Positions 32,919 through 55,153 of a stretch of DNA of 64,000 bases are shown one piece after another. Numbering within the stretch: position 1 is the stretch's first letter; each line of letters begins with the position of its first letter. The position numbers and the translations under genes were made by a program. The notes under the pieces are model-generated. The model was not told the origin of the DNA. It saw nothing but the letters and a program-made list of their open reading frames with translations, and searched no databases. Origin of the DNA: Kitasatospora albolonga (GTDB lineage Bacteria > Actinomycetota > Actinomycetes > Streptomycetales > Streptomycetaceae); the NCBI GenBank assembly GCA_002082585.1, contig CP020563.1:2164001-2228000 (forward strand). Reading direction: 5' to 3'.

Positions 32919-32991
32919 GTGCACCTGTCGATTTGATCACGAAAGAAGGCAGATTGCCCGACTCTGCACTCTTTATGCATCAACATGCCGA

Positions 32992-35439: not shown

Positions 35440-35503
35440 TCGGGCCCCTGCGATCGCACAAAGCGACAACAGAGGCCCGGATAAGCACAATTGTCAAGAA
35501 TTA

Positions 35504-37310: not shown

Positions 37311-38747
37311 CTAGAAGGGGTCGAACTCGTCGTACGCCTTCTCCGCGTCGTCGCGCTGGGCGTCGCGTTCCCGGCGGCGCTGGGCGGCGGGGCGCGGCTC
37401 CTCCAGGCGGTGGTCCTCGCCGCGCCGGCCGAGCATCTCGGCACCGGCGCTGACGGTCGGCTCCCAGTCGAAGACGACCGCGTTGTCCTCGGGCCCGATG
37501 GCGACCCCGTCACCGGCCCGCGCACCGGCCTTGACCAGCTCGTCCTCGACGCCGAGGCGGTTGAGCCGGTCCGCGAGGTAGCCGACGGCCTCGTCGTTGT
37601 TGAAGTCGGTCTGGCGCACCCAGCGCTCGGGCTTCTCGCCCCGTACGCGGTAGAGGCCCTCGCCCTCCGCGGTGACCGTGAAGCCCGCGTCGTCCACGGC
37701 CTTGGGGCGGATGACGATCCGGGTCGCCTCCTCCTTCGGCTTGGTGGCGCGCGCCTCCGCGATGATCCCGGCGAGCGCGAAGCTCAGCTCCTTGAGGCCC
37801 TTGTGCGCGATGGCGGAGACCTCGAAGACCTGGTAGCCGCGGGCCTCCAGGTCGGGGCGGATCATGTCGGCGAGGTCCTGGCCGTCGGGGATGTCGACCT
37901 TGTTCAGGGCGACGATGCGGGGCCGGTCGTCCAGGCCGCCGTACTGGCGCAGCTCCTCCTCGATGATGTCGAGGTCGGAGACGGGGTCGCGGTCGGACTC
38001 CAGCGTCGCGGTGTCCAGGACGTGTACGAGCACCGAGCAGCGCTCGACGTGGCGCAGGAACTCCAGGCCGAGGCCCTTGCCCTGGCTGGCGCCGGGGATG
38101 AGGCCCGGGACGTCGGCGATGGTGTAGACGGTCGAGCCCGCGGTGACGACGCCGAGGTTCGGGACGAGCGTGGTGAAGGGGTAGTCCGCGATCTTCGGCT
38201 TGGCGGCGGAGAGGACCGAGATCAGCGAGGACTTGCCCGCGCTCGGGTATCCCACGAGGGCCACGTCGGCGACGGTCTTGAGCTCCAGGACGATGTCCCG
38301 GCTCTCCCCCGGCTCACCGAGCAGCGCGAACCCGGGGGCCTTGCGGCGGGCGGAGGCCAGCGCCGCGTTGCCGAGGCCGCCGCGACCGCCCTGACCGGCG
38401 ACGAAGGTGGTGCCCTGGCCGACGAGGTCGGCGAGCACGTTCCCGGCCTTGTCGAGGACGACGGTGCCGTCGGGGACGGGCAGGACCAGGTCCTGGCCGT
38501 CCTTGCCGGAACGGTTGTCACCGGCGCCGGGCTGGCCGTTGGTGGCCTTGCGGTGGGGGCTGTGGTGGTAGTCCAGCAGCGTGGTCACGGACTGCTCGAC
38601 GACGAGGATCACATCGCCGCCCCGTCCGCCGTTGCCCCCGTCGGGGCCGCCCAGCGGCTTGAACTTCTCACGGTGTACGGAGGCGCAGCCGTGGCCTCCG
38701 TTACCCGCGGCGGCATGCAGCTCGACGCGGTCCACGAAGGTGGTCAT
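37311..38747 (-). CDS. obg: Obg GTPase
   Basis: 478 residues, normal for actinobacterial Obg. The glycine-rich Obg fold ([30 protein letters not shown]) is followed by the G domain with [11 protein letters not shown] (G1), [10 protein letters not shown] (G3) and ALNKVDIPD (G4), then the OCT domain and an acidic/basic tail [12 protein letters not shown]. Obg acts in 50S assembly and in Streptomyces is linked to the onset of aerial growth. ATG at 38747 has TGGAGG upstream. It follows rplU-rpmA in the usual order, with a terminator hairpin between rpmA and obg. Confidence 0.96.
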
Positions 38748-38814
38748 GGTGGGTGCCTCCAGATAACAGGTGCAGGTACAGCGGAAAAAGCGGAATTGTC
38801 TCTGTCGTAACACG

Positions 38815-38867
38815 CCGAGGGCGGACCCGCTTCCCCGTTCGCCGGGAAAGCTGAGATCCGCCCTCGG
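38815..38867 (-). terminator. hairpin between rpmA and obg
   Basis: CCGAGGGCGGA (38815-38825) and TCCGCCCTCGG (38857-38867) are exact complements with smaller pairing inside. It ends or attenuates the ribosomal protein transcript, letting obg be expressed from its own promoter. Confidence 0.8.
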
Positions 38868-38906
38868 AAGGTGCTGTGTGCCGTTCTGCGCGCGCTGAGG
38901 AAGAAC

Positions 38907-39164
38907 TCAGACGGCGAGCGGAACGATGTTCACGACCTTGCGGCCGCGGTGCGTACCGAACTCCACCGCACCGGCGGTCAGCGCGAACAGCGTGTCGTCG
39001 CCGCCACGGCCGACGCCCGTGCCCGGGTGGAAGTGGGTGCCGCGCTGGCGGACCAGGATCTCACCGGCGTTGACGGCCTGACCGCCGAAGCGCTTCACGC
39101 CGAGCCGCTGAGCATTGGAATCGCGCCCGTTCCGAGTGGACGATGCGCCCTTCTTGTGTGCCAT
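38907..39164 (-). CDS. rpmA: 50S ribosomal protein bL27
   Basis: 85 residues: [44 protein letters not shown], ending VNIVPLAV, full-length bL27. Its N-terminal tail reaches the peptidyl-transferase centre. ATG at 39164, 14 bases after the rplU stop, so co-transcribed with it. Confidence 0.98.
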
Positions 39165-39178
39165 GTGTTCTCAGTCCC

Positions 39179-39499
39179 TTACTTCGCAGCCGCGGGGATA
39201 CCGGTGACCTTGATCGCCGTGTACTGCTGGCGGTGACCCTGGCGACGGCGGTAGCCGGTCTTGTTCTTGTAGCGAAGGATGTCGATCTTCGCGCCCTTGT
39301 GGTGGTCCACGACCTCGGCCGTGACCTTGATGCCGTCCAGCACCCACGGGTCGCTGGTGACCGAGTCACCGTCGACAACGAGCAGGGTCGAGAGCTCGAC
39401 CGTGTCGCCAACCTTGGCAGTGGAAATCTTGTCAACCTCAACGATGTCGCCGACAGCAACCTTGTGCTGGCGACCACCGCTGCGCACGATGGCGTACAC
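39179..39499 (-). CDS. rplU: 50S ribosomal protein bL21
   Basis: 106 residues, [22 protein letters not shown] to [11 protein letters not shown], full-length bL21. GTG at 39499 with GAGAGAGA eight bases upstream. The 150 bases upstream on the minus strand contain short GC hairpins (GGGCTCCGGCCC near 39553-39564) that may be a ribosomal leader, but I cannot define one. Confidence 0.97.
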
Positions 39500-39750
39500 G
39501 CGGATCTCTCTCTCGCTCGGAACGGGTCCCCTGATGCCAGCCGCTCGCACGGGCCGGAGCCCGGGACGATCCGGAAGGATGAGCGGCCTCTCCTGGCGGA
39601 CGGCGCGAACACCGACCGTGACCGGGAGGGATGTGCTCAGGGGCAGGTGTGCATGGAAAACACACCGAGGGTCAAGGTTACGGGGCGGGGGTGTGGGGGT
39701 CAAACCGGGGTGGAGTGCCGCCGCGACCGGGCCCTTCAGCTACCCGAAGG

Positions 39751-39769
39751 GGCCGCCGCGGAGGCGGCC
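39751..39769 (-). terminator. hairpin after the secreted-protein gene
   Basis: GGCCGCC (39751-39757) and GGCGGCC (39763-39769) pair across five bases, 24 bases past the stop at 39793. Confidence 0.6.
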
Positions 39770-39792
39770 GGGACTCCTCGGCCCGCCGACAA

Positions 39793-40257
39793 CTACCCGG
39801 GAATCCAGTAATTGGCCATGAGGGTCTCACTGGGATTCTCATTCACGCCGTTCATGTAAAGCTCACCCCAGCCGTAATTATTTCCGACCTTGCCCGATGA
39901 GCTTTTCCCGTAGCAGGCGGTGAGCGCACCCGCCGAAAGGTTGCTGTCGTGGCAGTAGGCGAACGTGTTCGGGTTCCAGCCCGCATGCACACGCCCGTAT
40001 ATTTCAATGTCCACGCTGGCGTTGTTCCTCACCAGCATGACCGGCTGCATGTTCTTTCCGCTTCCACGGATGATGCAGGTCTGAAAGATGACGTTCTTCG
40101 ACTTCCAGTGATTCGTCGTGGGGCCGCATGTGTAATCTGACGTGGGCACCCACTTCTGCCAGAAGGGCCATGCGGCGGCCGGAGTCACCGTCAACAGCGA
40201 GGCTGCTGCGACAACACCGGCTACAGTCGCGGCTCGGACCATTCGACGCGGAACCAT
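39793..40257 (-). CDS. small secreted protein of unknown function, four cysteines
   Basis: 154 residues. A Sec signal peptide (basic MVPRRMVRAA, hydrophobic core GVVAAASLLTV, cleavage after PAAA) is followed by about 125 residues with C in DYTCGPTT, FQTCIIRG, FAYCHDS and TACYGK, consistent with two disulfides. The mature part is rich in Asn, Gly, Tyr and Trp. ATG at 40257 has a strong AGGGGG. Codon use is less GC-biased than in neighbours (ATA, TTT, GTT), suggesting later acquisition. It sits between rplU and the plus-strand sugar operon. No family recognised. Confidence 0.75.
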   Translation of the reverse strand: MVPRRMVRAATVAGVVAAASLLTVTPAAAWPFWQKWVPTSDYTCGPTTNHWKSKNVIFQTCIIRGSGKNMQPVMLVRNNASVDIEIYGRVHAGWNPNTFAYCHDSNLSAGALTACYGKSSSGKVGNNYGWGELYMNGVNENPSETLMANYWIPG

Positions 40258-40601
40258 TGATATCCCCCTGTGAAGTTCGCGGTCACTCGACCTGCCGGGA
40301 TACTACACAGAAATCTCGAGGGCTCACCTGAATCAATCCCGCAAATGCCGCATAATCTACTTTTCTTGCGAGATAATCGACGTCGCTCTCCAGCCGATCG
40401 AAAAAACGGCAGGCCCGGTGGATGCTCTCCACAGCAGCGTCCGAGCACTGCGGAGGACAAAATAAGGCGCATACCGGGATCTGCACGGACCACGCCGCCG
40501 GCAGAAGTCCGGCCGTCTTGCGGAGTCGACCGGGGAACTGGCCCTTCACGTGGATGCCCTAGGATTTCCCAACGATCCGTTCCCCATGGAAGGCGCAGAG
40601 C
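40258..40601. other. AT-richer divergent promoter region before the sugar operon
   Basis: 344 bases between the secreted-protein gene and the acetyltransferase gene, with a relatively AT-rich core at 40335-40400 (TAATCTACTTTTCTTGCGAGATAAT). It should carry promoters both ways; GATAAT near 40370 is a candidate -10 for the plus-strand operon. A minus-strand frame 40283-40549 is open but has weak codon bias and a TTA codon, and I do not call it. Confidence 0.45.
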
Positions 40602-41204
40602 GTGAACTACAGGGTCCAGCCCACCGCCCAGGTCGACGAGACCGCCGAGATCGGCGCGGGCAGCAGCGTCTGGGAGCTGGCGCAGATCCGTGAGGGGGCG
40701 AGGCTCGGCGAGGGCTGCGTCGTGGGCCGGGGCGCGTACGTCGGTACCGGGGTCCGCATCGGCAACAACGTCAAGCTGCAGAATTACGCCCTCGTCTACG
40801 AGCCCGCCGAGCTCGGCGACGGCGTCTTCGTCGGCCCCGCGGTCGTCCTCACCAACGACCACAACCCGCGCTCGGTGGACCCCGAGGGCAAGCAGAAGCG
40901 CGGCGGCGACTGGGAGGCCGTGGGCGTCCAGGTCGCCGAGGGCGCGTCGCTCGGCGCCCGGTCCGTCTGTGTGGCCCCGGTGCGGATCGGCCGGTGGGCG
41001 ATGGTCGCGGCGGGCGCGGTGGTGACCAAGGATGTCCCCGACTTCGCCCTGGTCGTCGGCGTACCGGCCCGGCAGATCGGCTGGGTGGGCCACAGCGGCG
41101 TACGCCTGGTGGCCCGCGAGGGGGAGCCAGGCGGGTGGGAGTGCCCGCAGAGCGGTGCCGTGTACGAGGAGAAGGACGGCGCCCTCACCGAGCGGGCGGG
41201 CTGA
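40602..41204 (+). CDS. left-handed beta-helix N-acetyltransferase, WbpD-like
   Basis: 200 residues of hexapeptide repeats (ETAEIGAGSSVWELAQI, GVRIGNNVKLQNYALVY, FVGPAVVLTNDHNPR, GASLGARSVCVAPVRIG, WAMVAAGAVVTKDVPDFALVVGVPARQIGWV). The overall pattern and the DFALVVGVPARQIGWVGHSG ending match WbpD/WlbB enzymes that acetylate the 3-amino group of UDP-2-acetamido-3-amino-uronic acid. GTG at 40602 with GGAAGGCG upstream. First gene of the plus-strand operon with the acyltransferase and the 2-epimerase; its likely substrate would be produced by the dehydrogenase, oxidoreductase and aminotransferase of the 45313-50359 genes. Confidence 0.87.
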   Translation: MNYRVQPTAQVDETAEIGAGSSVWELAQIREGARLGEGCVVGRGAYVGTGVRIGNNVKLQNYALVYEPAELGDGVFVGPAVVLTNDHNPRSVDPEGKQKRGGDWEAVGVQVAEGASLGARSVCVAPVRIGRWAMVAAGAVVTKDVPDFALVVGVPARQIGWVGHSGVRLVAREGEPGGWECPQSGAVYEEKDGALTERAG

Positions 41205-41208
41205 CGCC

Positions 41209-41313
41209 ATGACCGTACGACGGGACTCCACCGCCACGCTCGTGACGCCGCTCCCCCCGAAGCTTCTGAGCCGACAGCTCATACGCCGGCTCAGAGAAGC
41301 CAGAGAAGGATGA
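41209..41313 (+). CDS. possible 34-residue coupling peptide
   Basis: ATG at 41209 reads MTVRRDSTATL to RRLREAREG and stops at TGA 41311-41313, overlapping an ATG at 41310 as ATGA. It fills the gap between the acetyltransferase and acyltransferase genes and contains an inverted repeat. It may be a short leader whose translation couples the next gene, or chance. Confidence 0.3.
   Translation: MTVRRDSTATLVTPLPPKLLSRQLIRRLREAREG
41262..41300 (+). promoter_or_regulatory. hairpin upstream of the acyltransferase start
   Basis: CTGAGCCG (41266-41273) pairs with CGGCTCAG (41287-41294), extended by GCTT with AAGC. It lies just before the ATG choices at 41310 and 41325 and could control translation of the acyltransferase. 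Confidence 0.5.
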
Positions 41314-41324
41314 GGACGACGCCG

Positions 41325-42536
41325 ATGGCGAAGGGCCCCCTGCCGGAGGCCGGGCACTCGCGGCTGGACTCCCTTACCGGACTGCGTTTCTGGGCGGCGC
41401 TGGCCGTCGTGTTCTACCACCTGTCGCGGCAGGGCGGTGAGCTCCCCTGGATCAGCGATATCACCTGGTACGGGCGGAGCGGGGTGACCTTCTTCTTCAT
41501 CCTCTCCGGGTTCGTGCTGGCGTGGACGTACGACGGCAAGTCCGTGCCGGTCGTCGTCTTCCTCTGGCGCCGGTTCGCCCGGATCTGGCCGCTGCTCGCC
41601 GTCTCGACGGTGGCCTCCATCGCCGTGTGGCGGGCCCTCGGCACCGACATATCGCTGCGGGGCACCGCCGCCACCCTGGCCCTGGTGAACGCCTGGGTGC
41701 CCGAACGCCCGTATCTCGTGGGCGGGAACCCCGCCGCCTGGTCCCTCAGCGACGAGGCATGGTTCTACCTGCTCTTCCCTCTTCTCATGGCGCTGCCGCT
41801 GATGCGGAGCTCCCGGGGCCGCGTGGGCATCGCCGTCTTCGTGTGCGTCGCCTCCGTGGGCGTCTGGCTGAGCAGCTCCCTGATCAGCGATTCGCTGGTG
41901 CGGCTGTGGGCCATGGACTACTTCCCGCCGACCCGGACGCTCCAGTTCGTCCTGGGCGTCGCCGCCGGGCTGGCCGTCAAGCGGGGCTGGCGACCGCCGG
42001 TCGGGCTGCGCGCCGCCGTCGTACTGGTCGTGGCCTGGCACCTGGTGCTGATCCCGTGGTCGGACGCCGTACCCGACACCCTCTGGTACAGCCCCTACAC
42101 CGCTTCCCAGCTGCTCGCCGCACCGTTCTTCGCGCTCCTGGTCGCGGCGGCGGCGGCCGCCGATGTCGAACGGCGCCGGACCGGCCTCTCCGGGCCCGGC
42201 ATGGTCAGGCTCGGCCAGTGGTCGTTCGCCTGGTACCTGTTCCACGAGATCGTGCTCAGGGCCCTGCTGGGCACCTTCGGCAAACCGGTGGGGCTGCTCG
42301 ACACCGCCACCCTCTGGGGCGCCACGCTGGTGCTGAGTCTGGCGCTGGCCGCGATTGCTTACCATGGCGTGGAACATCCGCTCGAACGGCTGCTCCGTCG
42401 CCGTGGCCCTGGTGGGACCACTCCCGGCGCTCCTGCGGAACAGACCGGGGCGCAGGAGCCCGCGGTCCCGCAGCCGAGCATGCGAAGCCCCTACCCATCT
42501 CATCGTCGGACGACCCAGAAGAAGAGCGTGCAATGA
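41325..42536 (+). CDS. acyltransferase family 3 membrane protein (OafA/YrhL-like)
   Basis: 403 residues with about ten transmembrane helices. Family marks: LDSLTGLRFWAALAVVFYHL at the N-terminus with the catalytic His, VTFFFILSGFVLAW, FLWRRFARIWPLLAV, and AWSLSDEAWFYLLFPLL (the SLxxExxFYL motif). Such proteins O-acetylate or otherwise acylate surface sugars. I chose ATG at 41325 because GAGGA lies eight bases upstream; ATG at 41310 overlaps a preceding short frame and is an alternative. Its stop overlaps the start of the epimerase gene (ATGA). It would decorate the wall polymer made here. Confidence 0.85.
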   Translation: MAKGPLPEAGHSRLDSLTGLRFWAALAVVFYHLSRQGGELPWISDITWYGRSGVTFFFILSGFVLAWTYDGKSVPVVVFLWRRFARIWPLLAVSTVASIAVWRALGTDISLRGTAATLALVNAWVPERPYLVGGNPAAWSLSDEAWFYLLFPLLMALPLMRSSRGRVGIAVFVCVASVGVWLSSSLISDSLVRLWAMDYFPPTRTLQFVLGVAAGLAVKRGWRPPVGLRAAVVLVVAWHLVLIPWSDAVPDTLWYSPYTASQLLAAPFFALLVAAAAAADVERRRTGLSGPGMVRLGQWSFAWYLFHEIVLRALLGTFGKPVGLLDTATLWGATLVLSLALAAIAYHGVEHPLERLLRRRGPGGTTPGAPAEQTGAQEPAVPQPSMRSPYPSHRRTTQKKSVQ

Positions 42537-43627
42537 AAGTCATCAGCATCGTCGGTGCCCGTCCCCAGCTGGTGAAGCTGGCCGCCGTGGCGGCGGCATT
42601 CGCCCAGACCGAGCACCAGCACGTGATCGTCCACACCGGGCAGCACTACGATGCGGACCTCTCGGACGTCTTCTTCTCCGGTCTCGGCATCCCCGACCCG
42701 GACGTGCACCTCGGTGTCGGTTCCGGGAGCCACGGGGTGCAGACCGGGTCGGTGCTCTCCGCGCTCGACCCCGTGCTCGACGCGGAGCAGCCCGACTGGG
42801 TCCTGGTCTACGGCGACACCAACTCCACGATCGCCGGGGCGCTCTCGGCCGTGAAGCAGCACCTTCCGGTCGCGCACCTCGAAGCGGGGCTGCGGTCGTT
42901 CAACCGGCGGATGCCCGAGGAGCACAACCGGGTGCTGACCGACCACTGCGCCGATCTGCTGCTGGCGCCGACCGAGGAGGCCATGCGCCACCTCGCCAAC
43001 GAGGGGCTCGCCGAGCGGTCCGAGCTGGCCGGCGATGTGATGGTGGACATCTGCCTGCGGATCAGGGACGCCGTGCTGGCCGGGGAGCACCCCGCTCCGG
43101 CGCTGCCCGAGGGCATCGACCCCACCCAGCCGTTCCTGCTGGCGACCCTGCACCGCCCGGACAACACGGACGACCCGGAGCGGCTGTCCGCCATTATCGG
43201 GGCGCTGGCCGCGCTGCCGGTGCCGGTGGCGCTGCTGGCGCACCCCCGGCTCATCGCCCGGGCCCAGCAGCACGGCATCGAGCTGGCACAGGGCTCCGTC
43301 CACGTGGGCCGACCGCTGCCGTACGCCGGGCTCGTCGCCGCCGTCCTGGCCTCGTCCGGGGTGGTGACGGACTCCGGCGGGCTCCAGAAGGAGGCGTACC
43401 TGCTGGACCGGGTCTGCACGACGGTCCGGCCGGAGACCGAGTGGGTCGAGACCCTCGAGGACGGCTGGAACCACCTCGTCCCGGACCCGCACACGATGGC
43501 TCCCGCCGACTGGTCGGCGCTGGCCACCCGCCCCGCCCCCGAGGCCCCGCACGGGGCTCCGTACGGCGACGGCACGGCCGCCCAGCGCGTCGTGAAGCTC
43601 ATGGAGCAGGCCATGCGCCGCGCCTGA
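42533..43627 (+). CDS. UDP-HexNAc 2-epimerase (WecB/WbpI-type)
   Basis: 364 residues. Non-hydrolysing epimerase hallmarks: SIVGARPQLVKLAAV, VHTGQHYD, VYGDTNSTIAGA, HLEAGLRSFNRRMPEEHNRVLTDH, LLATLHRPDN, and VTDSGGLQKEAYLL. It inverts C2 of a UDP-2-acetamido sugar. Because the operon also has a WbpD-like acetyltransferase, and the opposite operon has a dehydrogenase, oxidoreductase and aminotransferase, the diacetamido-uronic acid epimerase WbpI is the better match than plain WecB; this is inference from context. ATG at 42533 overlaps the preceding stop. Slightly divergent C-terminus ends in a disordered stretch. Confidence 0.88.
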   Translation: MKVISIVGARPQLVKLAAVAAAFAQTEHQHVIVHTGQHYDADLSDVFFSGLGIPDPDVHLGVGSGSHGVQTGSVLSALDPVLDAEQPDWVLVYGDTNSTIAGALSAVKQHLPVAHLEAGLRSFNRRMPEEHNRVLTDHCADLLLAPTEEAMRHLANEGLAERSELAGDVMVDICLRIRDAVLAGEHPAPALPEGIDPTQPFLLATLHRPDNTDDPERLSAIIGALAALPVPVALLAHPRLIARAQQHGIELAQGSVHVGRPLPYAGLVAAVLASSGVVTDSGGLQKEAYLLDRVCTTVRPETEWVETLEDGWNHLVPDPHTMAPADWSALATRPAPEAPHGAPYGDGTAAQRVVKLMEQAMRRA

Positions 43628-43640
43628 CGCCGTGAAACCG

Positions 43641-43678
43641 CCGAAGGGCTCATCCGCCGTCGCGGGTGAGCCCTTCGG
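43641..43678. terminator. bidirectional hairpin between convergent genes
   Basis: CCGAAGGGCTCATC (43641-43654) pairs with GGTGAGCCCTTCGG (43665-43678), 14 bp with one wobble, between the epimerase stop and the GT4 stop. Confidence 0.88.
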
Positions 43679-43727
43679 TGTTCGGGGAAGTCCCCGGGCC
43701 GGCCGGGGAGACCGGCCGGCGCGGTGA

Positions 43728-45284
43728 TCAGCCGAGGTGCTTCAGGAGTCGCTCGTACAGGGCGACGTACTTCTCCGCCTGCGCCTCCCAGCTCCACTCG
43801 TCGAGCATGCCGGGCTGGTCGTAGGCGGCGGTGTAGCGGTCCCGGTCGTTGAGGACCATCCCGACGGCCCGCGCCAGGTCCTTGCTGTCCTCGGAGCGGA
43901 AGACCTCGCCGTTGCCGACCCGGGTGACCTCGTCCGACATCGCCTTGACGTCGCTGACGACCACGGGGAGCCGCGCCTGCATGAACTCGAAGAACTTCGT
44001 GCTCAGCGCGACCTCGTGGTTGACCGGGCCCTTGCGCAGCGGGTGGATACCGACGTCCGCGGTGGACAGGAACCGCACCAGCACGTCGTACGGGACGTAC
44101 GGCATGAGGTGAATCCGGTCCGTGACCCCGAGCTCTCCGGCGAGCGCCCGCAGGGAGTTGACGTAGTCGCCGTCCAGGTTGTTGATCATGAACGCGGCGT
44201 GCACGTCGGGCGTGTGCTGGAGCGACTCCACGATGGTGTGGAGGCACCGCTGGGGTGCCGCCCCGCCGCAGTAGACCACCAGGGGAACGTCCGGCGCCAG
44301 GCCGCACGCCTCACGGACGTCCCGCGCCCCCTCGGCCGTGGTCCAGTCCGCCCGCTCGCCCTCCTCGCCGGGCACCAGCTTGGGCGGCGCGTTGAGCGTC
44401 ACCTCCGGCCGCTCGGCCAGGCCGTGCTCGGTCTCCAGCATCTCCGCGAGGGCGGGGGAGACCGTCACGATCGCGTCCACGAACCCGATGTGCTCACGCT
44501 CGTAGGCGACCTGCGAGGCCAGCCACTTCCGCGACCGCTTGGCCTGGGCCAGACCGGGCACGAACTCGTGCGCGTCGTAGATCACCTTGACGTCGCGGCC
44601 GGCCTGCCGGGCCCGGACCGCCGCACGCGCCGCGACACCGATCATCCGGAAGTCGTGGGCGTGGATCAGGTCGGGCTTGAGCTTCTCGATCTTCTCCCGG
44701 TAGCTGAGCTCGTAGCGGAGCGGCAGCGGGTCCAGGCGCCGCCAGGCGCGATCGCCCATGGCGGTGCTCCAGAAGCGGCGCTCCACCTCCTCCCAGGCCC
44801 CGTCCTGGTCGCCCCAGCTGCCCGTGCGCGCCGTCGTCTGGCGGGCGCGGACCTTGATCGTGGTGCGGCGGAGCTTCCCGGCGGCTCGCTGCGCGAGCAT
44901 GGGCAGCTGCTTGGTCTGCGGCTCCTTGGAAATACCGGTGCGGGCACCGGAGGCGACCTTGTTCATCTCCAGCTCAGCCCAGATCACCTTGATGCTCTGG
45001 GTCTTGAGTATGGCCCGGTCCTGCGTCGGGTAGGACAGCGGGTAACGGAGCCGGGACAGGCGCCGCCGCAGGGTCTTGCGCGGGGGCAGCCGCCGCAGCG
45101 TCAGCCGGTGGATCTGCGCGTCGCCGATCTTGTACTTGTCGGGACCGGACGAGGGCGCCTTCCCGATGAGGTGGACCTCCCAGCCCGCCTCGGCCATGGC
45201 CCGGGCGCTCTTCTGAACGCGCGAATCACCGTCGATGGTGTTGTCGACGAGCATCACGACTCGTCCGGGTCGTCTCTCTTGCAT
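43728..45284 (-). CDS. family 4 glycosyltransferase
   Basis: 518 residues with GT-B layout. N-terminal domain: VVMLVDNTIDGDSRVQKSARAMAEAGWEV; acceptor side LIHAHDFRMIGVAARAAV and VIYDAHEFVPG; C-terminal GT4 donor domain with VVYCGGAAPQRCLHTIVESL, VGIHPLRKGPVNHEVALSTKFFEFMQARLPVVVSDV (the EX7E-type region). An extra basic helical insert lies at about 90-180. ATG at 45284 has AAAGGAAACC. Last gene of the minus-strand sugar operon, 28 bases after the dehydrogenase gene. Donor and acceptor cannot be told. Confidence 0.85.
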   Translation of the reverse strand: MQERRPGRVVMLVDNTIDGDSRVQKSARAMAEAGWEVHLIGKAPSSGPDKYKIGDAQIHRLTLRRLPPRKTLRRRLSRLRYPLSYPTQDRAILKTQSIKVIWAELEMNKVASGARTGISKEPQTKQLPMLAQRAAGKLRRTTIKVRARQTTARTGSWGDQDGAWEEVERRFWSTAMGDRAWRRLDPLPLRYELSYREKIEKLKPDLIHAHDFRMIGVAARAAVRARQAGRDVKVIYDAHEFVPGLAQAKRSRKWLASQVAYEREHIGFVDAIVTVSPALAEMLETEHGLAERPEVTLNAPPKLVPGEEGERADWTTAEGARDVREACGLAPDVPLVVYCGGAAPQRCLHTIVESLQHTPDVHAAFMINNLDGDYVNSLRALAGELGVTDRIHLMPYVPYDVLVRFLSTADVGIHPLRKGPVNHEVALSTKFFEFMQARLPVVVSDVKAMSDEVTRVGNGEVFRSEDSKDLARAVGMVLNDRDRYTAAYDQPGMLDEWSWEAQAEKYVALYERLLKHLG

Positions 45285-45312
45285 GGTTTCCTTTTTCTCT
45301 GTAAGTGAGCGT

Positions 45313-46596
45313 TCAGCCACCGATGACCACGCGGCGTACGCCCGCCCACTTCGCCGGGTCCGTGGTGCGGCGGCCGTCGACCAGGACACGGACGTCCGGC
45401 AGGTCGGCGGCGGAGAGCTCGCGGTACTCGGCGTGGTCGGCCTGGAGGATCGCCGCGGTGACGGCCTGGCCCTCGTGCGGGACGAGGCCGTGGGCGGTCA
45501 GCTCCTCGGCGGTGTACATCGGGTCCGAGACGAACGGCACCGCGCCGCGCGCCTTGAGCGCCTCGACGGTCCCGAAGACACCGGAGAACGCGGTCTCCTT
45601 CACACCGCCCCGGTAGGCGGCGCCCAGCACCAGGACCCCGACGCCGTCCAGGTCGCCGTAGGCGGCGGCCAGCAGGTCGACGGCGTACGCGGGCATCGCG
45701 GCGTTGGCCTCGCGGGCCGAGCGCACGACGGTCGCCTCGGGGTCGTTCCACAGGTACATCCGCGGGTAGATCGGGATGCAGTGGCCGCCGACGGCGATGC
45801 CGGGCTGGTGGATGTGGCTGTAGGGCTGGCTGTTGCAGGCTTCGATGACCTTCTTGACGTCGATGCCGTTCTTGTCGGCGAACCGGGCGAACTGGTTGGC
45901 CAGCCCGATGTTGACGTCCCGGTAGGTGGTCTCGGCGAGCTTCGCCAGCTCGGACGCCTCCGCCGTGCCGAGGTCCCAGACCCCATTGGGGCGGGGCAGG
46001 TCGGCGCGCTCGTCGAAGTCGAGCACGGCCTCGTAGAAGGCGACACCGCGCGCGGAGGACGCCTCGTCGATGCCGCCGACGAGCTTGGGGTAGCGGCGCA
46101 GGTCGGCAAAGACCCGACCGGTGAGCACGCGCTCCGGGGAGAAGACCAGGTGGAAGTCCTCGCCCGGGGTGAGGCCGGAGCCCTCGGCCAGCATCGGCGC
46201 CCAGCGGTCACGGGTGGTGCCGACGGGCAGCGTGGTCTCGTAGCTGACCAGGGTGCCGGGCTTCAGGCCCGCCGCGATGGCCCGGGTCGCGGCGTCCATC
46301 CAGCCGAAGTCCGGGGTGCCCTCGGCGTCCACGAAGAGCGGGACGACGACCACGACGGCGTCGGACGCGGCGACCGCCGCAGTGGTGTCCGTCGTGGCGG
46401 AGAGCAGACCGGCGGCGACCGTCTCCTTGAGCTTGACATCGAGGTCGTGCTCGCCGGGGAACGGCTCCGTGGCCGCGTTGACGAGCTCGACGACCTTCTC
46501 GTTGACGTCCGCGCCGATGACCTTGTGGCCCTTGGCGGCGAACTGCACGGCGAGCGGAAGTCCGATCTTGCCGAGCGCGACTACACAGATGTTCAT
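45313..46596 (-). CDS. nucleotide-sugar 6-dehydrogenase (WbpA/WecC-type)
   Basis: 427 residues. NAD-binding VALGKIGLPLAVQFAAKGHKV at the N-terminus, then SYETTLPVGTTRDRW, the SPERVLTGRV loop, and the catalytic cysteine in VGGHCIPIYPRMYL. These enzymes oxidise C6 of UDP-HexNAc to the uronic acid. The SPERV and GGHCIPIYP pattern groups it with UDP-GlcNAc/ManNAc dehydrogenases and not UDP-glucose dehydrogenases. With the aminotransferase and oxidoreductase upstream it would start a Wbp-like route to a diacetamido-uronic acid. ATG at 46596 with GAGGAAG at longer spacing. Confidence 0.9.
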   Translation of the reverse strand: MNICVVALGKIGLPLAVQFAAKGHKVIGADVNEKVVELVNAATEPFPGEHDLDVKLKETVAAGLLSATTDTTAAVAASDAVVVVVPLFVDAEGTPDFGWMDAATRAIAAGLKPGTLVSYETTLPVGTTRDRWAPMLAEGSGLTPGEDFHLVFSPERVLTGRVFADLRRYPKLVGGIDEASSARGVAFYEAVLDFDERADLPRPNGVWDLGTAEASELAKLAETTYRDVNIGLANQFARFADKNGIDVKKVIEACNSQPYSHIHQPGIAVGGHCIPIYPRMYLWNDPEATVVRSAREANAAMPAYAVDLLAAAYGDLDGVGVLVLGAAYRGGVKETAFSGVFGTVEALKARGAVPFVSDPMYTAEELTAHGLVPHEGQAVTAAILQADHAEYRELSAADLPDVRVLVDGRRTTDPAKWAGVRRVVIGG

Positions 46597-46605
46597 CGGG
46601 GTTAC

Positions 46606-48222
46606 TTACTTCCTCTTCGACCTGGAAAGCGTTCGGCGCAGCCGTGCGCCCACGCCGGGCTTGGGTTCCCACAGGGGGGCCGTCGTGATCACGAGCCGCC
46701 CCTTGGTGTTCGGGGTCGCGGCGACCCGGTGGGGCGTGGTCCTCCCCCACCGGCGGGCCAGCGGCATCGGCAGACCTTCGGTGCGGACCGGGATCTCGTA
46801 CGTGGAGCCGGCGACGTCGACGTACACGCGGACGCCGCGCTTGGCCCGGACGGCCTCGACCGGGACGCGGGCGTCCAGCAGGGTGCCGGTGCCGTCCCCG
46901 GCGGGTACGGCGGTGAACGTACCGAGCGCCTCCGGGCGCCGGGCGCCCTTGGACAGCTTGCGGGCGCCGGGCTTGTCGGCGGACTCCGGCATGGCGCCCT
47001 GGGCGAGGGCGACGTAGGCCGACGAGGTGTCACCGGCGATACCGAGGCGCAGCTTCAGGGCGAGCGTGAGCTCCTCCCCGTCCTGCTCCCACTCCGCCGA
47101 CTCCAGCTTCGTACCGGCCGCGAGCCTGCCCGCGACCGTCTCGTGGGCCTCGTACCACCGCTCGTCGAGGCCGACCCCGGCGTCCCGGAAGCCCGGGTAC
47201 AGCGCGAAGGCACGGTCCCCCTCCAGCAGGAAGGGCGGCGCCCCGTGCTCGGTCTCGTCCGCGATGGCGCGGGTGAGCTCCTCGACTGCGCCGCGCAGGG
47301 CGAGGCCGAAGCGCACCCGGCGCTTGACGCCCGTACCGTCGCGCAGCGCGTCCGTGAAGTACGCCTCCACCAGCGCGCCGATGCCCTCGCACACCTGGCG
47401 CCGGGTGTCGGGGTCGAGGGCGGTGAAGTCCTTCTTCAGAAGCTTGGAGAGCTCCCAGTCGAAGTGCCGCTTGAGCACGGCGTCGCGCTCGGGCCCGGCC
47501 GGGACGAGCCCCGCAGTGTGCTCCATGATGCGCGCGGTGCACCGGAGGCGGGCCAGGTGGTCCGCCCGGTAGGTGATGTTGCTCTCGTCGCCGCGCTTGA
47601 CCGCGTAGTAGTACGTGTAGTCGGAGAGCACGGAGATCTTCCGGGCCCGGACGCACGCCTCGATGGTGAACGGCTGGTCGCTGCCGACGGGCAGGTCCTC
47701 GGGGAACCGCAGCCCGTGCTTCTCCACCAGTTCGCGGCGGAAGAGCTTGGTGTTGGCGAGCGTGTAGGGCAGCTCGGAGTCGTAGAGGCTGATGTCGGTC
47801 CGGTCGCCGCTGTACAGCTTCTGGTGGACGTAGCGCCCGTTGGTGCCGACCATCTTGCCGATGACCACGTCCGACTCGTTGGCGTCGGCGCAGGCGACCA
47901 TCCGCTCCAGGGCCTCTTCGCCCAGGTAGTCGTCCGAGCCGATGAAGTAGACGAAACGGCCGGTCGCCAGATCGAGGGCCCGGTTGCTGGGCGCGGCGGG
48001 GCCACCGGAGTTCTCCTGGTGGATCACCGTGACCGTGCCGGGGTAGCGCTCGGCGAACCGGTCCAGCTCCCGGCCGCTGTCGTCGGTGGACCCGTCGTCC
48101 ACGGCGATGACCTGGAGCCGTTCCGTACCGATGCTCTGTCCCACGAGTGAATTCAGGCACTCGGTGAGATACGGCATGGTGTTGTAAACGGCTACGACGA
48201 CGGTGACATCGGGTTCGGTCAA
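46606..48222 (-). CDS. family 2 glycosyltransferase with C-terminal accessory domain
   Basis: 538 residues. GT-A motifs VTVVVAVYNTMPYLTECLNSLV, VIAVDDGSTDDSGREL and FVYFIGSDDYLGEEALERM; residues 290-538 form a further helical and beta-rich part ending in LRRTLSRSKRK, a basic membrane-binding end like that of the 31683-32918 paralog. The start is TTG at 48222, overlapping the stop of the oxidoreductase gene (TTGA), with GGGGGTGG upstream; no ATG or GTG gives an intact N-terminus. It would add a sugar, perhaps the diacetamido-uronic acid, to the lipid-linked chain. Confidence 0.83.
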   Translation of the reverse strand: MTEPDVTVVVAVYNTMPYLTECLNSLVGQSIGTERLQVIAVDDGSTDDSGRELDRFAERYPGTVTVIHQENSGGPAAPSNRALDLATGRFVYFIGSDDYLGEEALERMVACADANESDVVIGKMVGTNGRYVHQKLYSGDRTDISLYDSELPYTLANTKLFRRELVEKHGLRFPEDLPVGSDQPFTIEACVRARKISVLSDYTYYYAVKRGDESNITYRADHLARLRCTARIMEHTAGLVPAGPERDAVLKRHFDWELSKLLKKDFTALDPDTRRQVCEGIGALVEAYFTDALRDGTGVKRRVRFGLALRGAVEELTRAIADETEHGAPPFLLEGDRAFALYPGFRDAGVGLDERWYEAHETVAGRLAAGTKLESAEWEQDGEELTLALKLRLGIAGDTSSAYVALAQGAMPESADKPGARKLSKGARRPEALGTFTAVPAGDGTGTLLDARVPVEAVRAKRGVRVYVDVAGSTYEIPVRTEGLPMPLARRWGRTTPHRVAATPNTKGRLVITTAPLWEPKPGVGARLRRTLSRSKRK

Positions 48223-49244
48223 TTGGCCACCCCCTGGAGAGATTCGTCCGCGGTCCTGAGCGACACCGAGAGGCCGGTCGTCGCCGACTCGATGACGGCG
48301 GCTGCCACCTCCACCGTACGAAGGCCCTGGCGCAGGGTGCAGATATCGGCAGGCTTGCCCTGTACAGCGTCGCGGAAGAGCTCGTGCTCGACAAGCAGCG
48401 GCTCGCGCTTCGGGATCGCGTAACGGACCATGTCGCCCTCGGATACCCCGCGGAAGGCGCGCAACGCCTCCCATTCGGTGGTGACCGCGGCGTTGGAGTG
48501 GAAAGTGAGGTCGGCGGTGAGGGTGTCGGCGATGAAGCAGCCGCGCTCGCCGGTGACCGAGGTGAATCGTTCCTTGAGCGGGCTCAGCCAGTTGACCAGG
48601 TGGTTGACCATCGTGCCGTCGGAGAGCTGGCCGACGGCGGAGACCATGTCCTCGTGCGGGCGGCCGGACTTGGAGACGGTGTGCGCGGCGATCGAGGTGT
48701 ACGTCTGGCCGGTGACCCAGCCCGTCAGGTCGATGTCGTGCGTGGCGAGGTCCTTGACCACGCCGACGTCCGCGATCCGGTGCGGGAAGGGCCCCTGGCG
48801 GCGGGTGACGACCTGGTAGACGTCGCCCAGCTCGCCGGCCTCCAGGCGGCTGCGCAGCGAGAGCAGGGCGGGGTTGCAGCGCTCGATGTGGCCGACGCCC
48901 GCGACCAGGTCGCGGGACTCGAACGCCTCGACGAGGCGGCGGGCGCCCTCGACGGTGTCCGCGAGCGGCTTCTCGATCAGGGCGCAGACACCGGCGTCGG
49001 CGAGCTGGAGGCCGACCTCCTCGTGCAGGCCGGTGGGGCAGGCCACTACGGCGTAGTCGATGCCGCGGGCGATGAGCTCCTCGACGGTGGAGAGGACCGG
49101 GGCGCCCTGCGCCCAGCCGTTCTTGTCGCCCATCGGGTCGACGACGCCGACCAGCTCGACGCCCTCCAGGCCCGCGAGGATACGGGCGTGGTGGCGGCCC
49201 ATGGAGCCGAGGCCGATGAGCCCGGCCTTGAGTACGGCGCTCAC
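48219..49244 (-). CDS. Gfo/Idh/MocA oxidoreductase (UDP-sugar 3-dehydrogenase candidate)
   Basis: 341 residues. Rossmann motif AGLIGLGSMGRHHARIL near the N-terminus, the family EKP motif in VCALIEKPLADTV, and HIERCNPALLSLR with the helix that carries the catalytic Lys/His region (DVGVVKDLATHDIDLTGWV). Members next to DegT aminotransferases oxidise C3 of UDP-GlcNAc or its uronic acid (GnnA or WbpB). GTG at 49244 overlaps the aminotransferase stop. Context makes the 3-dehydrogenase role likely; the exact substrate is not certain. Confidence 0.87.
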   Translation of the reverse strand: MSAVLKAGLIGLGSMGRHHARILAGLEGVELVGVVDPMGDKNGWAQGAPVLSTVEELIARGIDYAVVACPTGLHEEVGLQLADAGVCALIEKPLADTVEGARRLVEAFESRDLVAGVGHIERCNPALLSLRSRLEAGELGDVYQVVTRRQGPFPHRIADVGVVKDLATHDIDLTGWVTGQTYTSIAAHTVSKSGRPHEDMVSAVGQLSDGTMVNHLVNWLSPLKERFTSVTGERGCFIADTLTADLTFHSNAAVTTEWEALRAFRGVSEGDMVRYAIPKREPLLVEHELFRDAVQGKPADICTLRQGLRTVEVAAAVIESATTGLSVSLRTADESLQGVAN

Positions 49245-50359
49245 AGGTTCTCCCCCAGCGCGTTCACGGCGGCGACGATGCGCTCCAGGTCGTTCCGGGT
49301 GAGCGAGGGGTGCACGGGCAGCGAGACGACCTCGGCCGCGGCCTTCTCGGTCTCGGGCAGCTCCCAGGTGCGGCCCGCCTTCTGGTCCGGCTCCCAGTAG
49401 GGCCTCAGCCGGTGGATCGGCGTCGGGTAGTAGACCGCGTTGCCGATGCCCGCCTCGGTGAGCTGGGCCATCGCGGCGTCCCGGTCGCCCCGGATGCGCA
49501 CGGTGTACTGGTGGTAGATGTGCCGCGCGCCCTCGGCGACCGGCGGCGTGGTGACGGCCGGTGCGGTGATGTGGGCGTCGAAGTAGGCCGCGTTGGCCCG
49601 GCGCTGCTCGGTCCAGCCCTCCAGCTTGGCGAGCTGTACGCGGCCGACGGCGGCGGAGACGTCGGTCATCCGCATGTTGGCGCCGACGATCTCGTTGGCG
49701 TACCGCTGCTCCATGCCCTGGTTGCGCAGGAGGCGGAGCGTACGGGCCAGTTCGGCGTCGCCCGTGGAGACCATGCCGCCCTCGAGGGAGTGCATGTTCT
49801 TGGTCGGGTAGAAGCTGAAGGTGCCGCCCGCGCCGAACGCGCCGACCGGGGTGCCGTTCAGCGCCGCCGCGTGGGCCTGGCAGGCGTCCTCGACGATGGC
49901 CAGCCCGTGCTTCTCGGCGATCGGCACGATCCTGTCCATCGCCGCCGGGTGGCCGTAGAGGTGGACCGGCATGATCGCGGCGGTGCGCGGGGTGATCGCG
50001 GCCTCGACGGCCGCCGGGTCCAGGCCGAAGCTGCCCGGCTCGATGTCGGCGAAGACCGCGTCGGCGCCGACCAGGCGGACCGCGTTGGCGGAGGCGGCGA
50101 AGGAGAACGAGGGGACGATCACCTCGTCGCCGGGGCCGATCCCCAGCGCGAGGAGCAGCAGGTGGAGGGCCGAGGTGCCCGAGTTCACGGCGACGCAGTG
50201 CCGGCCGTCGACCAGCTGCGAGAAGCCCTCCTCGAAGGCCGCGACCTCGGGCCCCTGCACGACCCGGCCGCTGCGCAGTACGCGTACGGCGGCCTCGATC
50301 TCGTCTTCCCCGATGACCGGACGGGCAGCAGGAATCGGCTGCTCGTTGATGCTCGTCAT
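49241..50359 (-). CDS. DegT/DnrJ/EryC1 aminotransferase (WbpE/GnnB-like)
   Basis: 372 residues. PLP fold with VNSGTSALHLLLLALGIGPGDEVIVPSFSF, IVEDACQAHAA, and the PLP lysine in FSFYPTKNMHSLEGGM. The enzyme should transfer an amino group from glutamate to the 3-keto UDP-sugar made by the coupled oxidoreductase. ATG at 50359 has a near-perfect AAGGAGG. First gene of the operon aminotransferase, oxidoreductase, GT2, dehydrogenase, GT4, each joined by overlaps or short gaps. Confidence 0.92.
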   Translation of the reverse strand: MTSINEQPIPAARPVIGEDEIEAAVRVLRSGRVVQGPEVAAFEEGFSQLVDGRHCVAVNSGTSALHLLLLALGIGPGDEVIVPSFSFAASANAVRLVGADAVFADIEPGSFGLDPAAVEAAITPRTAAIMPVHLYGHPAAMDRIVPIAEKHGLAIVEDACQAHAAALNGTPVGAFGAGGTFSFYPTKNMHSLEGGMVSTGDAELARTLRLLRNQGMEQRYANEIVGANMRMTDVSAAVGRVQLAKLEGWTEQRRANAAYFDAHITAPAVTTPPVAEGARHIYHQYTVRIRGDRDAAMAQLTEAGIGNAVYYPTPIHRLRPYWEPDQKAGRTWELPETEKAAAEVVSLPVHPSLTRNDLERIVAAVNALGENL

Positions 50360-50630
50360 GGACGTCCTCCTTGAACACCGCAAGAGCTCGTTACAGGGCA
50401 GAGCTCTGGGGTGCGGGACGTCTTACGAGGCCGCGCGTAACCCCACCGGCGCGATGCCGACGCCCTGCCGAGGAAACTGGTCCGGCTTCTTTGACTCACC
50501 GGGCCGGTCACCGGTTGTAGTTTCTGCGAAGAATCCTCACAGTCCAGCGACCGCCGTCACATTATCAGGGATTTCTCGTCCCATTTCGGGCCCGTTAACC
50601 GGTGCTTGCATCAGTTCAGAAACAAAGGGC
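50360..50630. promoter_or_regulatory. promoter region of the minus-strand sugar operon
   Basis: No gene in this gap. On the minus strand TGATAAT (50561-50567) is the best -10 candidate, preceded by the small palindrome GGGACGAGAAATCCC, giving an untranslated leader of about 200 bases. A clear -35 is not visible. Confidence 0.45.
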
Positions 50631-50663
50631 GTGGCCCGCCCCGAAAGTATCGGAGCGGGCCAC
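50631..50663 (-). terminator. terminator of the RNase E/G gene
   Basis: GTGGCCCGC (50631-50639) pairs with GCGGGCCAC (50655-50663), continuing inward through CCGA/TCGG. It is 28 bases past the rne stop. Confidence 0.85.
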
Positions 50664-50691
50664 GGAAAATGAACGACCGATTACGGATTCG

Positions 50692-53600
50692 TCAGTTGCC
50701 CGACGAGTCCCCGTCGGTGGACTGCGTCGAAGCGGTTACGGAAGGCGACGACTGCTCGGCGGCGACGGTCTTCTTCGTCGCCTTCTTGGCGGCCGTCTTC
50801 GCCGTCGTCTTCTTCGCGGCGGTCTTCTTGGCGGCCGTCTTCTTGGCCACCGCCTTCTTCGCCGGAGCCTTCTTGGCGGCGGCCTTGCGGGCCGTCTTCT
50901 TCGCCGGGACCGCTTCGTCGGACGCACCAGCCTCCGGAGCCGTCGCCTGCGGGGCGTCGGCCTGCGGGGCGTCGGCCTGCGGGGCGTCGGCCTGCGGGGC
51001 GTCGGCCTCAGGTGCCTTCGCCTCGACCACGACGACCGCCGTGTCCTCCGCACCGGTGGGCGAACCCGCCGGAGCGGTGACCTTACGGGTCACCCGGCGC
51101 CGGGCACGCGGCGGAGCGGCCTCCTTGGGGGCCTCCGCCTCAGGCGCCTCGGGCGCCTCGGGCGTTTCAGGCACCTCAGGTGTCGCGGGCGTCTCCTGTA
51201 CGGGAGCGGCCTCGACGACCGGGTCCTCGACGGCGACCGGCTCCGTGGCGGGCTCGGCGGGCTGCACCGGCACCGCGGGCTCGGCCTGCTTCGGCGAACC
51301 CGCCGGGGCGGACGCCTTCCGGGTGGCGCGACGGCGCGTACGGCCCTGGGGCGCGGCCTCGGGGACCTCGGCGGCCTCCTGGGCCACCGGAGCCTCAGCA
51401 GCAACCGGAACCTCCGGAGCCTGCGGCTCGGGCGTGTCGGCAACCGGCTCCGGCTCCGCCTCAACGACCGGAGCGGACGCCTCCGCCACCGGAGCCTCGG
51501 CCTTCGGCGCACCGGCCGGGGCCGACGCCTTGCGGGACGCCCTGCGGCGGCCACGGCGCGAGGCAGCCGCCTCGGCCTCGGCCGGGCTGCTGTAGAACTC
51601 CTCGTCGGCGGTGACCTCGGGCTCCACCGCCACCGGGGCGGCGACCTCGGCGGCCAGTTCGGCCTCCGTCTCCGCAGGCTCGACGGCCGTGTGGTCCTCG
51701 TGCTCGTGGTCCTGGCCCGCACCGCCCCGGCGCTTCTTGGACTTCTTGCCGCCACCGCCGCCACCGGCGGACGTCGGCTGCTCCATGTGGACGATCACAC
51801 CGCGCCCGTTGCAGTGGACGCAGGTCTCGGAGAAGGACTCCAGCAGCCCCTGGCCCACCCGCTTGCGGGTCATCTGGACCAGGCCCAGCGAGGTGACCTC
51901 GGCCACCTGGTGCTTGGTGCGGTCGCGGCCCAGGCACTCCAGGAGGCGGCGCAGGACGAGGTCCCGGTTGGACTCCAGCACCATGTCGATGAAGTCGACC
52001 ACGACGATGCCGCCGAGGTCGCGCAGCCGCAGCTGGCGCACGATCTCCTCGGCCGCCTCCAGGTTGTTCCTGGTGACGGTCTCCTCCAGGTTGCCGCCCT
52101 GGCCGGTGAACTTGCCGGTGTTGACGTCGACCACGACCATCGCCTCGGTCTTGTCGATCACCAGCGAACCGCCGCTGGGCAGGTAGACCTTGCGGTCCAG
52201 CGCCTTCATCAGCTGCTCGTCGATGCGGTACGTCGCGAAGACGTCGACCTCGGAGGTCCAGCGGGAGAGCCGCTCGGTGAGGTCGGGCGCGACGTGCGAG
52301 ACGTAACCGTGGATGGTCTCCCAGGCGTCGTCACCGCTGACGATGACCTTGGAGAAGTCCTCGTTGAAGATGTCGCGGACGACCCGGACGGTCATGTCCG
52401 GCTCGCCGTAGAGCAGCGTCGGCGCGTTGGAGCCGCTGGTGCCCTTCGCCTTCTTCTGGATGTCCTCCCACTGCTGCTGGAGCCGCTCGACGTCACGGCG
52501 CAGCTCGTCCTCGCTGGCGCCCTCGGCGGCGGTGCGCACGATGACGCCCGCGTCCTCGGGGACGATCTTCTTGAGGATCGTCTTGAGGCGGGAGCGCTCG
52601 GTGTCGGGGAGCTTGCGGCTGATCCCGGTCATCGAGCCCTCGGGCACGTACACCAGGTAGCGGCCGGGCAGGGAGACCTGGCTCGTCAGACGGGCGCCCT
52701 TGTGGCCGATCGGGTCCTTGGTCACCTGGACCAGGACGGACTGGCCGGACTTGAGCGCGGTCTCGATGCGGCGCGGCCCGTGGGCCATGCCGAGCGCCTC
52801 GAAGTTGACCTCACCGGCGTACAGGACGGCGTTGCGGCCCTTGCCGATGTCGACGAAGGCGGCCTCCATGGAGGGCAGGACGTTCTGCACCTTGCCCAGG
52901 TAGACGTTGCCGACGTAGCTGGTGGCCTGCTCCTTGTTGACGTAGTGCTCGACGAGCACGTTGTCCTCGAGGACGCCGATCTGGGTGCGCTCGCCGCTCT
53001 GGCGGACGACCATCACGCGCTCGACGGCCTCGCGGCGGGCGAGGAACTCGGCCTCGGTGATGATCGGGACGCGGCGGCGGCCCTGCTCGCGGCCCTCGCG
53101 GCGGCGCTGCTTCTTGGCCTCCATACGGGTCGAGCCCTTGATGGACTGGACCTCGTCGAAGCCGGTGCCCGGCTCGCGCTCCTCCTTCTTGCGGGGCTCG
53201 CGGACCTTGACGACCGTACGCTCCGGGTCGTCCGTGCCGTTGTCGGTCTCGGCCGCACCCTCGCCGCTGCGGCGACGGCGACGGCGGCGACGACGGCTGC
53301 TGCTCGAACCGGAGGCGGCGGAGTCGTTGTCGCCGTCGTCCTCCTCGTCGGCCTCCTGGGCCGGAGCCTCGGCCTCGGCGCGGGACGGCACGGGCGCCTC
53401 GTCGGCGTGCTGCTGCTCGGCCTCGTCCGTGTCACTGGCCTCGCCACGGCGGCGACGGCGGCCACCGCGACGGCGGCGGCGCGAGGGGCGGTCGCCGTAC
53501 TCGTCGGTGTCCTCGCCCTCGTGCTCGTCCGCCTCGGCCTCGGGGGCCTCATCGGCGGGCTCCTCCACCGGGGCGGCGGGCGCGGCGGTCTGCTCGGGCT

Positions 53601-54921: not shown

Positions 54922-55153
54922 GCGGGCGGTTCTCCCGTCGTGCTCCCGGGCGCCGCGTCTGTGTCCGGTCCGGCACGGTCCGCAGGGGTGCGGGACCGCT
55001 CGTCCGGGGCGCGGGCGCCGCACGGGAGCTGATGTCTGGCTCGCCGGTTCCGTACGCGGTGTTGCGGACGGCCTGGCGAAAGTCTTATTTGGGTCAGTGC
55101 GCGGCCCGACCCAGGTGGCTCCCGAGTCGGAGGGCTGCGCTACAACGACCGCC

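Follow-up and report, generated by a model that had tools for sequence, protein, structure and literature searches.

The window analysed here is a stretch of 64,000 nucleotides from Kitasatospora albolonga (contig CP020563.1, positions 2,164,001 to 2,228,000), and the subject of this report is an eight-gene stretch within it (40602-50359), flanked by rplU and the RNase E gene (rne), whose genes are named here after the utr (umbrella toxin resistance) genes of Streptomyces griseus (Table 1). Profile searches against Pfam and NCBIfam recovered all eight genes with the domains that a preliminary description of this DNA had named. The minus-strand operon comprises, in the order of transcription, UtrA, UtrB, UtrC, UtrD, and a glycosyltransferase (GT) of the GT4 type, and the plus-strand operon comprises UtrJ, UtrI, and UtrH; overlaps of a few bases occur at A/B, B/C, and I/H. 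The two operons are convergent, not divergent as previously described; their 3' ends face each other at 43.63-43.73 kb, where two inverted repeats lie (43641-43727). The first of these repeats is a possible shared terminator of both operons. An Rfam scan of 38000-52000 returned no family at gathering scores.

The published utr system (PMC13274773; Cell, December 2025) comprises utrA-J of S. griseus, in which mutations were found in toxin-resistant clones, and its locus search was anchored on the genes for L21, L27, TarIJ, and TagF. The S. griseus chain, ->3)GalNAc-alpha(1->4)-ManNAc3NAcA-beta(1->, is linked via the diamino-uronic sugar GlcNAc3NAcA to ribitol teichoic acid, acts as the umbrella-toxin receptor, had its structure determined by nuclear magnetic resonance (NMR), and is lost on deletion of utrC; the chain of S. 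antibioticus is beta-1,4-GlcNAc3NAcA. The paper gives NMR structures, deletions of utrC, and selections with toxins for these two species, and its reference list includes older structural work (Tul'skaya 2011). Among the papers listed in literature searches, judged by titles and abstract openings, a ManNAc3NAcA-containing wall polymer of actinomycetes was found only in PMC13274773; the list also includes a paper on Planobispora rosea that mentions teichuronic acid 15 times (PMC8269224).

In an S. griseus genome of our set (L020), the gene calls after the RNase E gene are A B C D E in the forward and F G H I in the reverse direction, with utrJ just past the utrI block by contig coordinates. The window shares with S. 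griseus the interval beside rplU/rpmA, neighbours of the TarIJ and TagF types, an arrangement in two convergent blocks (seen in L020), and orthologues of utrA-D and utrH-J, the proteins of the window and L020 being identical at 93.5% (A), 94.2% (B), 81.3% (C), 94.9% (D), 85.5% (H), 74.9% (I), and 92% (J) of positions. The best match of UtrC in the PDB was 5tze (155.6 bits), which we take to be TarS. The catalytic Asp of this TarS-like protein is residue 182 in the window and residue 181 in L020 counted from the GTG start, which is the number of the residue mutated in S. griseus, where D181N in UtrC abolishes toxin sensitivity (PMC13274773). Taken together, the interval with its rplU/rpmA and TarIJ/TagF neighbourhood, the gene order, the UtrC aspartate, and the 81-95% identity of UtrA-D to S. 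griseus indicate that the eight genes are, as judged from sequence, the utr locus of this strain. The suggestion that an undescribed system lies here was rejected, as the published utr locus is the same system; the combination of genes in this strain is new.

Table 1. Features of the utr locus and its surroundings, in window coordinates
Feature	Position	Strand	Evidence
UtrJ, hexapeptide N-acetyltransferase	40602-41204	+	PF00132
UtrI, acyltransferase 3	41310-42536	+	PF01757, 85.8 bits
UtrH, non-hydrolysing 2-epimerase	42533-43627	+	8sxv best PDB match, 329.4 bits
Inverted repeat between operons	43641-43678	.	17-nt arms, 94% complementary, 4-nt spacer
Second inverted repeat between operons	43691-43727
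GT4-type glycosyltransferase, 518 aa, in place of utrE/F/G	43728-45284	-	utrH-associated clade
UtrD, UDP-sugar 6-dehydrogenase	45313-46596	-	TIGR03026, 281.3 bits, above cut-off
UtrC, GT2 with TarS linker, TTG start	46606-48222	-	PF00535, PF22181 (TarS_linker)
UtrB, Gfo/Idh/MocA oxidoreductase, GTG start	48219-49244	-	PF01408, PF22725, PF02894
UtrA, DegT/DnrJ/EryC1 aminotransferase	49241-50359	-	PF01041, 405.7 bits
RNase E/G gene, locus anchor	50692-55170	-	PF10150, 339.7 bits
rplU, other locus anchor	39179-39499	-	translation
rpmA, next to rplU	38907-39164		translation
obg, beyond rpmA	37311-38813		NCBIfam
IspD + SDR protein, TarIJ-like, teichoic-acid precursor	35504-37000	-	PF01128, PF00106
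Divergent Glyphos_transf protein, marginal	33181-35490	-	PF04464, 22.9 bits (cut-off 22.1)
GT2 with TarS linker, UtrC paralogue beside TagF-family gene	31683-32924	-	PF00535, PF22181; UtrC family in clustering
TagF-family polyol-phosphate polymerase	28606-31374	-	PF04464, 355.5 bits

The window differs from the S. griseus locus in that 26001-60000 contains a single GT4 gene after utrD instead of utrE (4-epimerase), utrF, and utrG; none of these three gave a tblastn hit at 1e-10 in that interval, the rest of the genome not having been searched for them. They are variable rather than defining genes, as S. antibioticus, according to PMC13274773, has none of utrE, utrF, and utrH. The window (26001-60000) and S. 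antibioticus thus both lack utrE and utrF and both carry utrC and utrI, whereas S. antibioticus has utrG but no utrH, and the window has utrH. S. antibioticus is not among the loci kept for the comparisons below, and its sequences stand outside all of them. With the Wbp/Wlb route to UDP-ManNAc3NAcA of Pseudomonas and Bordetella the locus has five enzyme families in common, but that route feeds lipopolysaccharide, and the window's UtrB is only distantly related to WbpB. Unlike TarS/TarM of Staphylococcus aureus, which add single GlcNAc residues, the window is expected to specify a chain that contains diamino-uronic acids.

For UtrA, which is predicted to be a 3-aminotransferase, the WbpE chains 3nyu/3nu7 matched at about 240 bits, below 7b0d (303 bits) and 2oga (273 bits). 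For UtrB, which is predicted to oxidise C-3 of a UDP sugar, the PDB matches were all weak, with 7bvj, presumably GnnA, at 80.6 bits, inositol dehydrogenases at 72.1 bits and lower, 3q2k, presumably WlbA, at 53.3 bits, and 3o9z, named WbpB, at 23.7 bits. The best matches of UtrD and UtrJ were 4r16 (203.8 bits) and 3mqg (160 bits, followed by 4mzu at 85.8 bits), respectively, the latter being, we assume, WlbB with a uronic acid as substrate. As to the order of the steps, the amino branch at C-3 could come first: UtrB would act on UDP-GlcNAc as GnnA does, UtrA and UtrJ would give UDP-GlcNAc3NAc, and UtrD would oxidise C-6 later, with the same product. The rank of 7bvj above 3q2k and the WbpB-named chain fits this order, as does the automatic name UDP-N-acetylglucosamine 3-dehydrogenase, carried by 5 of the best 120 among 8000 UtrB relatives. 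However, the inositol dehydrogenases fall between 7bvj and 3q2k, UtrJ is closest to an enzyme that acts on a uronic acid, and the published pathway, itself given as a prediction, follows the Pseudomonas order of steps (PMC13274773). We regard the C-3-first order as the less likely one.

For UtrH, the UDP-GlcNAc3NAcA 2-epimerase 8sxv was the best PDB match, ahead of 4neq (221.3 bits). The marks of substrate in the Thermus thermophilus UDP-GlcNAc3NAcA 2-epimerase are Trp307, in place of an Arg that binds the C-3 hydroxyl, Tyr96, in place of His/Gln, and Ala18, in place of Leu/Met (PMC10622841). The window's UtrH has W304, Y93, and L16 at these positions, keeping two of the three marks, and the Trp and Tyr are present in 48 of 48 UtrH proteins (one per locus, the window's included). 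The other 2-epimerase of this genome (C1:2564657), by comparison, has Arg, Gln, and Leu, none of the three. These results suggest that UtrH probably acts on UDP-GlcNAc3NAcA; with L16 instead of Ala, its membership of the 8sxv type is probable rather than certain.

To place the window among its relatives, UtrB homologues were confirmed at 245 places and the best 80 loci were kept, 79 of which are titled Streptomyces or [Kitasatospora] papulosa and one 'Actinobacteria bacterium'. Gene calls for UtrA-D were obtained in all 80 loci as well as in the window, whereas the middle of the locus differs greatly: that of S. microflavus (L003) is unlike the window's despite 97% identity between the two UtrB proteins, and the arrangement A B C D GT4 / H I J recurs in L023 (S. 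halstedii) and L067. At E <= 1e-90, a UtrB match was present in 27 of 121 genomes of the genus, the window's own included, and the locus therefore looks patchy in the genus. One of these genomes (G067) has two UtrB matches, at C1:2055610-2056569 and C1:5751337-5752329, 68% and 93% identical to the window's.

Clustering placed the window's GT in a family of 56 members from 41 loci. Of these loci, 36 could be scored for utrH, the other five ending too early; absence was counted only where a locus reaches utrJ or rplU and presence always, a rule that leans towards presence. With this scoring, utrH was present in 13 of 13 loci with a GT of the family after utrD (in one of which, L069, the GT was called at only 388 aa), and in only 1 of 23 loci where such a GT lies only between utrB and utrC (Fisher, 6e-9, relatedness ignored). 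The single exception, L046, also has utrF and utrG. The window's GT falls in a 7-member clade of the GT tree (100/99), all members of which lie after utrD in loci with utrH, although the program warns of long branches in this tree and that of L035 is very long. When the utrH state was mapped as a check onto trees of RNase E (66 loci), UtrC (74 loci), and the GT (48 rows), a minimum of 12, 15, and 6 changes, respectively, was required; the RNase E and UtrC trees are quick estimates, and the three sets are of unequal size. In addition, the UtrH proteins encoded beside the six other GTs of the window's clade are 87.9-90.9% identical to the window's UtrH, compared to 79.4-85.7% for the other 41. 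The tracking of GT placement and clade by utrH, together with these nearest epimerases, fits a cassette of GT plus epimerase whose product would contain ManNAc3NAcA.

Other arrangements were also seen in the middle of the loci. L003, L004, L005, L006, and L038 encode a long glycosyltransferase (867-870 aa) after utrD and also contain utrH and a second GT. In L010, L013, L017, L075, and L076, a related glycosyltransferase (851-862 aa) lies between utrB and utrC, with utrH unseen (L010 and L075 end too early). In L014, L032, L036, and L056, a protein that by eye resembles glucose-1-phosphate uridylyltransferase stands directly after utrD, the place of utrE elsewhere.

As to the transferases themselves, UtrC is predicted to add the priming sugar of the chain to ribitol phosphate, and in profile and fold the window's GT4 resembles GT4 enzymes that are mostly retaining. 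Retaining GT4 enzymes give alpha links from UDP-alpha sugars. The window's GT4 looks like a retaining enzyme and would give alpha links, whereas the published uronic-sugar links are beta (PMC13274773); this leaves two possibilities, namely that another sugar is added by the GT4 and both uronic sugars by UtrC, or that the chain is unlike either published one. In the former case, the GT4 would add an ordinary alpha-linked GlcNAc or GalNAc supplied by housekeeping enzymes, as proposed for the alpha-linked sugar added by UtrF of S. griseus, UtrC would add both GlcNAc3NAcA and ManNAc3NAcA, and the product would again be a disaccharide repeat. The retaining profile and fold and the beta links of the published chains speak for this possibility, whereas the presence of utrH tracks the placement and clade of the GT but changes at least 15 times on the UtrC tree, and a separate enzyme, UtrG, has been proposed for ManNAc3NAcA in S. 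griseus (PMC13274773). We consider it possible, although on the doubtful side.

A switch of donor between the GT clades was also looked for in the alignment (A1). When the 7 rows of the window's clade were compared with the 20 rows of GTs between utrB and utrC, fixed differences occupied 20 of 199 C-terminal columns compared to 8 of 289 N-terminal columns (Fisher, p 0.001), whereas columns without a shared residue number 44 of 199 and 51 of 289 (p 0.25), with the border set by our own choice at residue 310. These results are only suggestive of a donor switch in the C-terminal half. We propose, tentatively and at slightly less than an even chance, that the window specifies a Streptomyces teichuronic acid of a third kind, in which ManNAc3NAcA is abundant and a dedicated GalNAc branch is absent, and that GT4 and UtrH form an exchangeable cassette in the rplU-rne interval that switches the uronic sugar in the wall receptor from GlcNAc3NAcA to ManNAc3NAcA between close relatives.

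The preliminary description had found no polymerase, flippase, or exporter in the window and considered the export route missing. A TagF-family polymerase, a marginal second protein of this kind, and a TarIJ-like protein are in fact present beside the locus, whereas the profile scan of 30 window proteins (not every reading frame) indeed revealed no exporter. A PF01061 search of the genome gave 22 places of ATP-binding cassette (ABC) genes, and in the 21 neighbourhoods examined (C1:7993506 was left out), one match at 1e-4 to six window proteins was obtained, for the TagF-family protein in L110 (34%). The stretch directly upstream of the window (L094) was covered by gene calls alone. In the neighbourhood with the TagF-family match, an ABC permease and ATPase at C1:2737301-2738990, about 0.52 Mb from the utr locus, come after a cluster that encodes three Glyphos_transf proteins. 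Besides the ABC pair, this second teichoic-acid locus (L115, C1:2724000-2743900) encodes a TylF-like methyltransferase and the three Glyphos_transf proteins, two of which carry a GT2 fusion. The two best models for the ATPase are teichoic-acid exporters, at 184.6 of 538 and 181.2 of 320 bits. The word 'export' does not occur in the text of PMC13274773. Because teichoic acid carries the chain in the published system, the chain of this strain would leave together with it, likely via this TagGH-like pair.

The teichoic-acid setting also bears on whether the product of the cluster might instead be a small secreted compound or free exopolysaccharide with no tie to teichoic acid. The matches of UtrA include DegT aminotransferases of antibiotic sugar pathways, a role that we assume for 2oga, but UtrC is of the TarS type, the neighbours are of the TagF and TarIJ types, and the homologous polymer has been shown to be joined to teichoic acid (PMC13274773), so that this explanation is very improbable.

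We hold with high confidence that this is the strain's utr locus, which would make a diamino-uronic chain bound to teichoic acid in the following steps. UtrA, UtrB, UtrD, and UtrJ would, by homology, convert UDP-GlcNAc to UDP-GlcNAc3NAcA, and UtrH would epimerise part of it to UDP-ManNAc3NAcA. UtrC would put the first GlcNAc3NAcA on the ribitol phosphate of the wall teichoic acid made by the TagF/TarIJ-type genes, the single GT4 would lengthen the chain, either by adding ManNAc3NAcA or by adding onto it, and UtrI, for which a role is proposed in PMC13274773, would O-acetylate the chain end. The chain would be completed on teichoic acid in the cytoplasm and then exported by a TagGH-type ABC exporter, most likely the one at C1:2737301-2738990; as it would leave together with teichoic acid, it would need no flippase or polymerase of its own. 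By analogy, it would serve as a species-specific surface receptor.

The earlier proposal of UDP-GlcNAc3NAcA or UDP-ManNAc3NAcA for a wall polymer finds support in the solved enzymes nearest to the epimerase and the acetyltransferase, the two epimerase residues, and the NMR structure of S. griseus (PMC13274773). Several observations, however, weigh against the pathway set out above. The best solved match of UtrA is other than WbpE, and UtrB is remote, being no closer to WbpB/WlbA chains than to inositol dehydrogenases. In UtrH, the position of Ala18 is Leu, the residue of the UDP-GlcNAc epimerase type, in 47 of 48 proteins (with one gap), and UtrH scores above the cut-off of NCBIfam TIGR00236 wecB, a UDP-GlcNAc 2-epimerase model (246.2 of 210.15 bits). 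The ATPase falls below both curated cut-offs, TagH included, and the pair is therefore called only TagGH-like. Finally, any sugar, linkage, and chain length for this strain are predictions; the product sugars were determined by NMR in S. griseus.

Some features of the interval touch the umbrella toxins or the variable flank of the locus. Between utrJ and rplU, 39793-40257 on the minus strand encodes a 154-aa protein with, by eye, a signal-peptide-like start and no Pfam family at 1e-3, in an interval whose gene content differs in other loci. The UmbA gene of S. griseus adjoins utrJ (PMC13274773). In or near utr loci, an Ala-rich repeat protein at L007:12315-14324 resembles UmbC, and trypsin-like and repeat proteins at L009:13543-15258 and L071:18847-20379 resemble UmbA, as judged by eye. 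In the present genome, one weak match for umbrella-toxin genes was obtained, at C1:3144103-3144684 (33%, query residues 151-340), to the L007 repeat protein.

The utr loci are variable, and the structure of the chain has been proposed to decide which umbrella toxins bind (PMC13274773). The likely route through the TagGH-like pair offers an answer to the puzzle of a polymer without an exporter. With one GT4, utrH, and utrI, and without utrE, utrF, or utrG nearby, the window is a simple test case for a rule linking gene content, namely GT clade and the presence of utrH, to the uronic sugar, and such a rule would allow the receptor type to be predicted from genomes.

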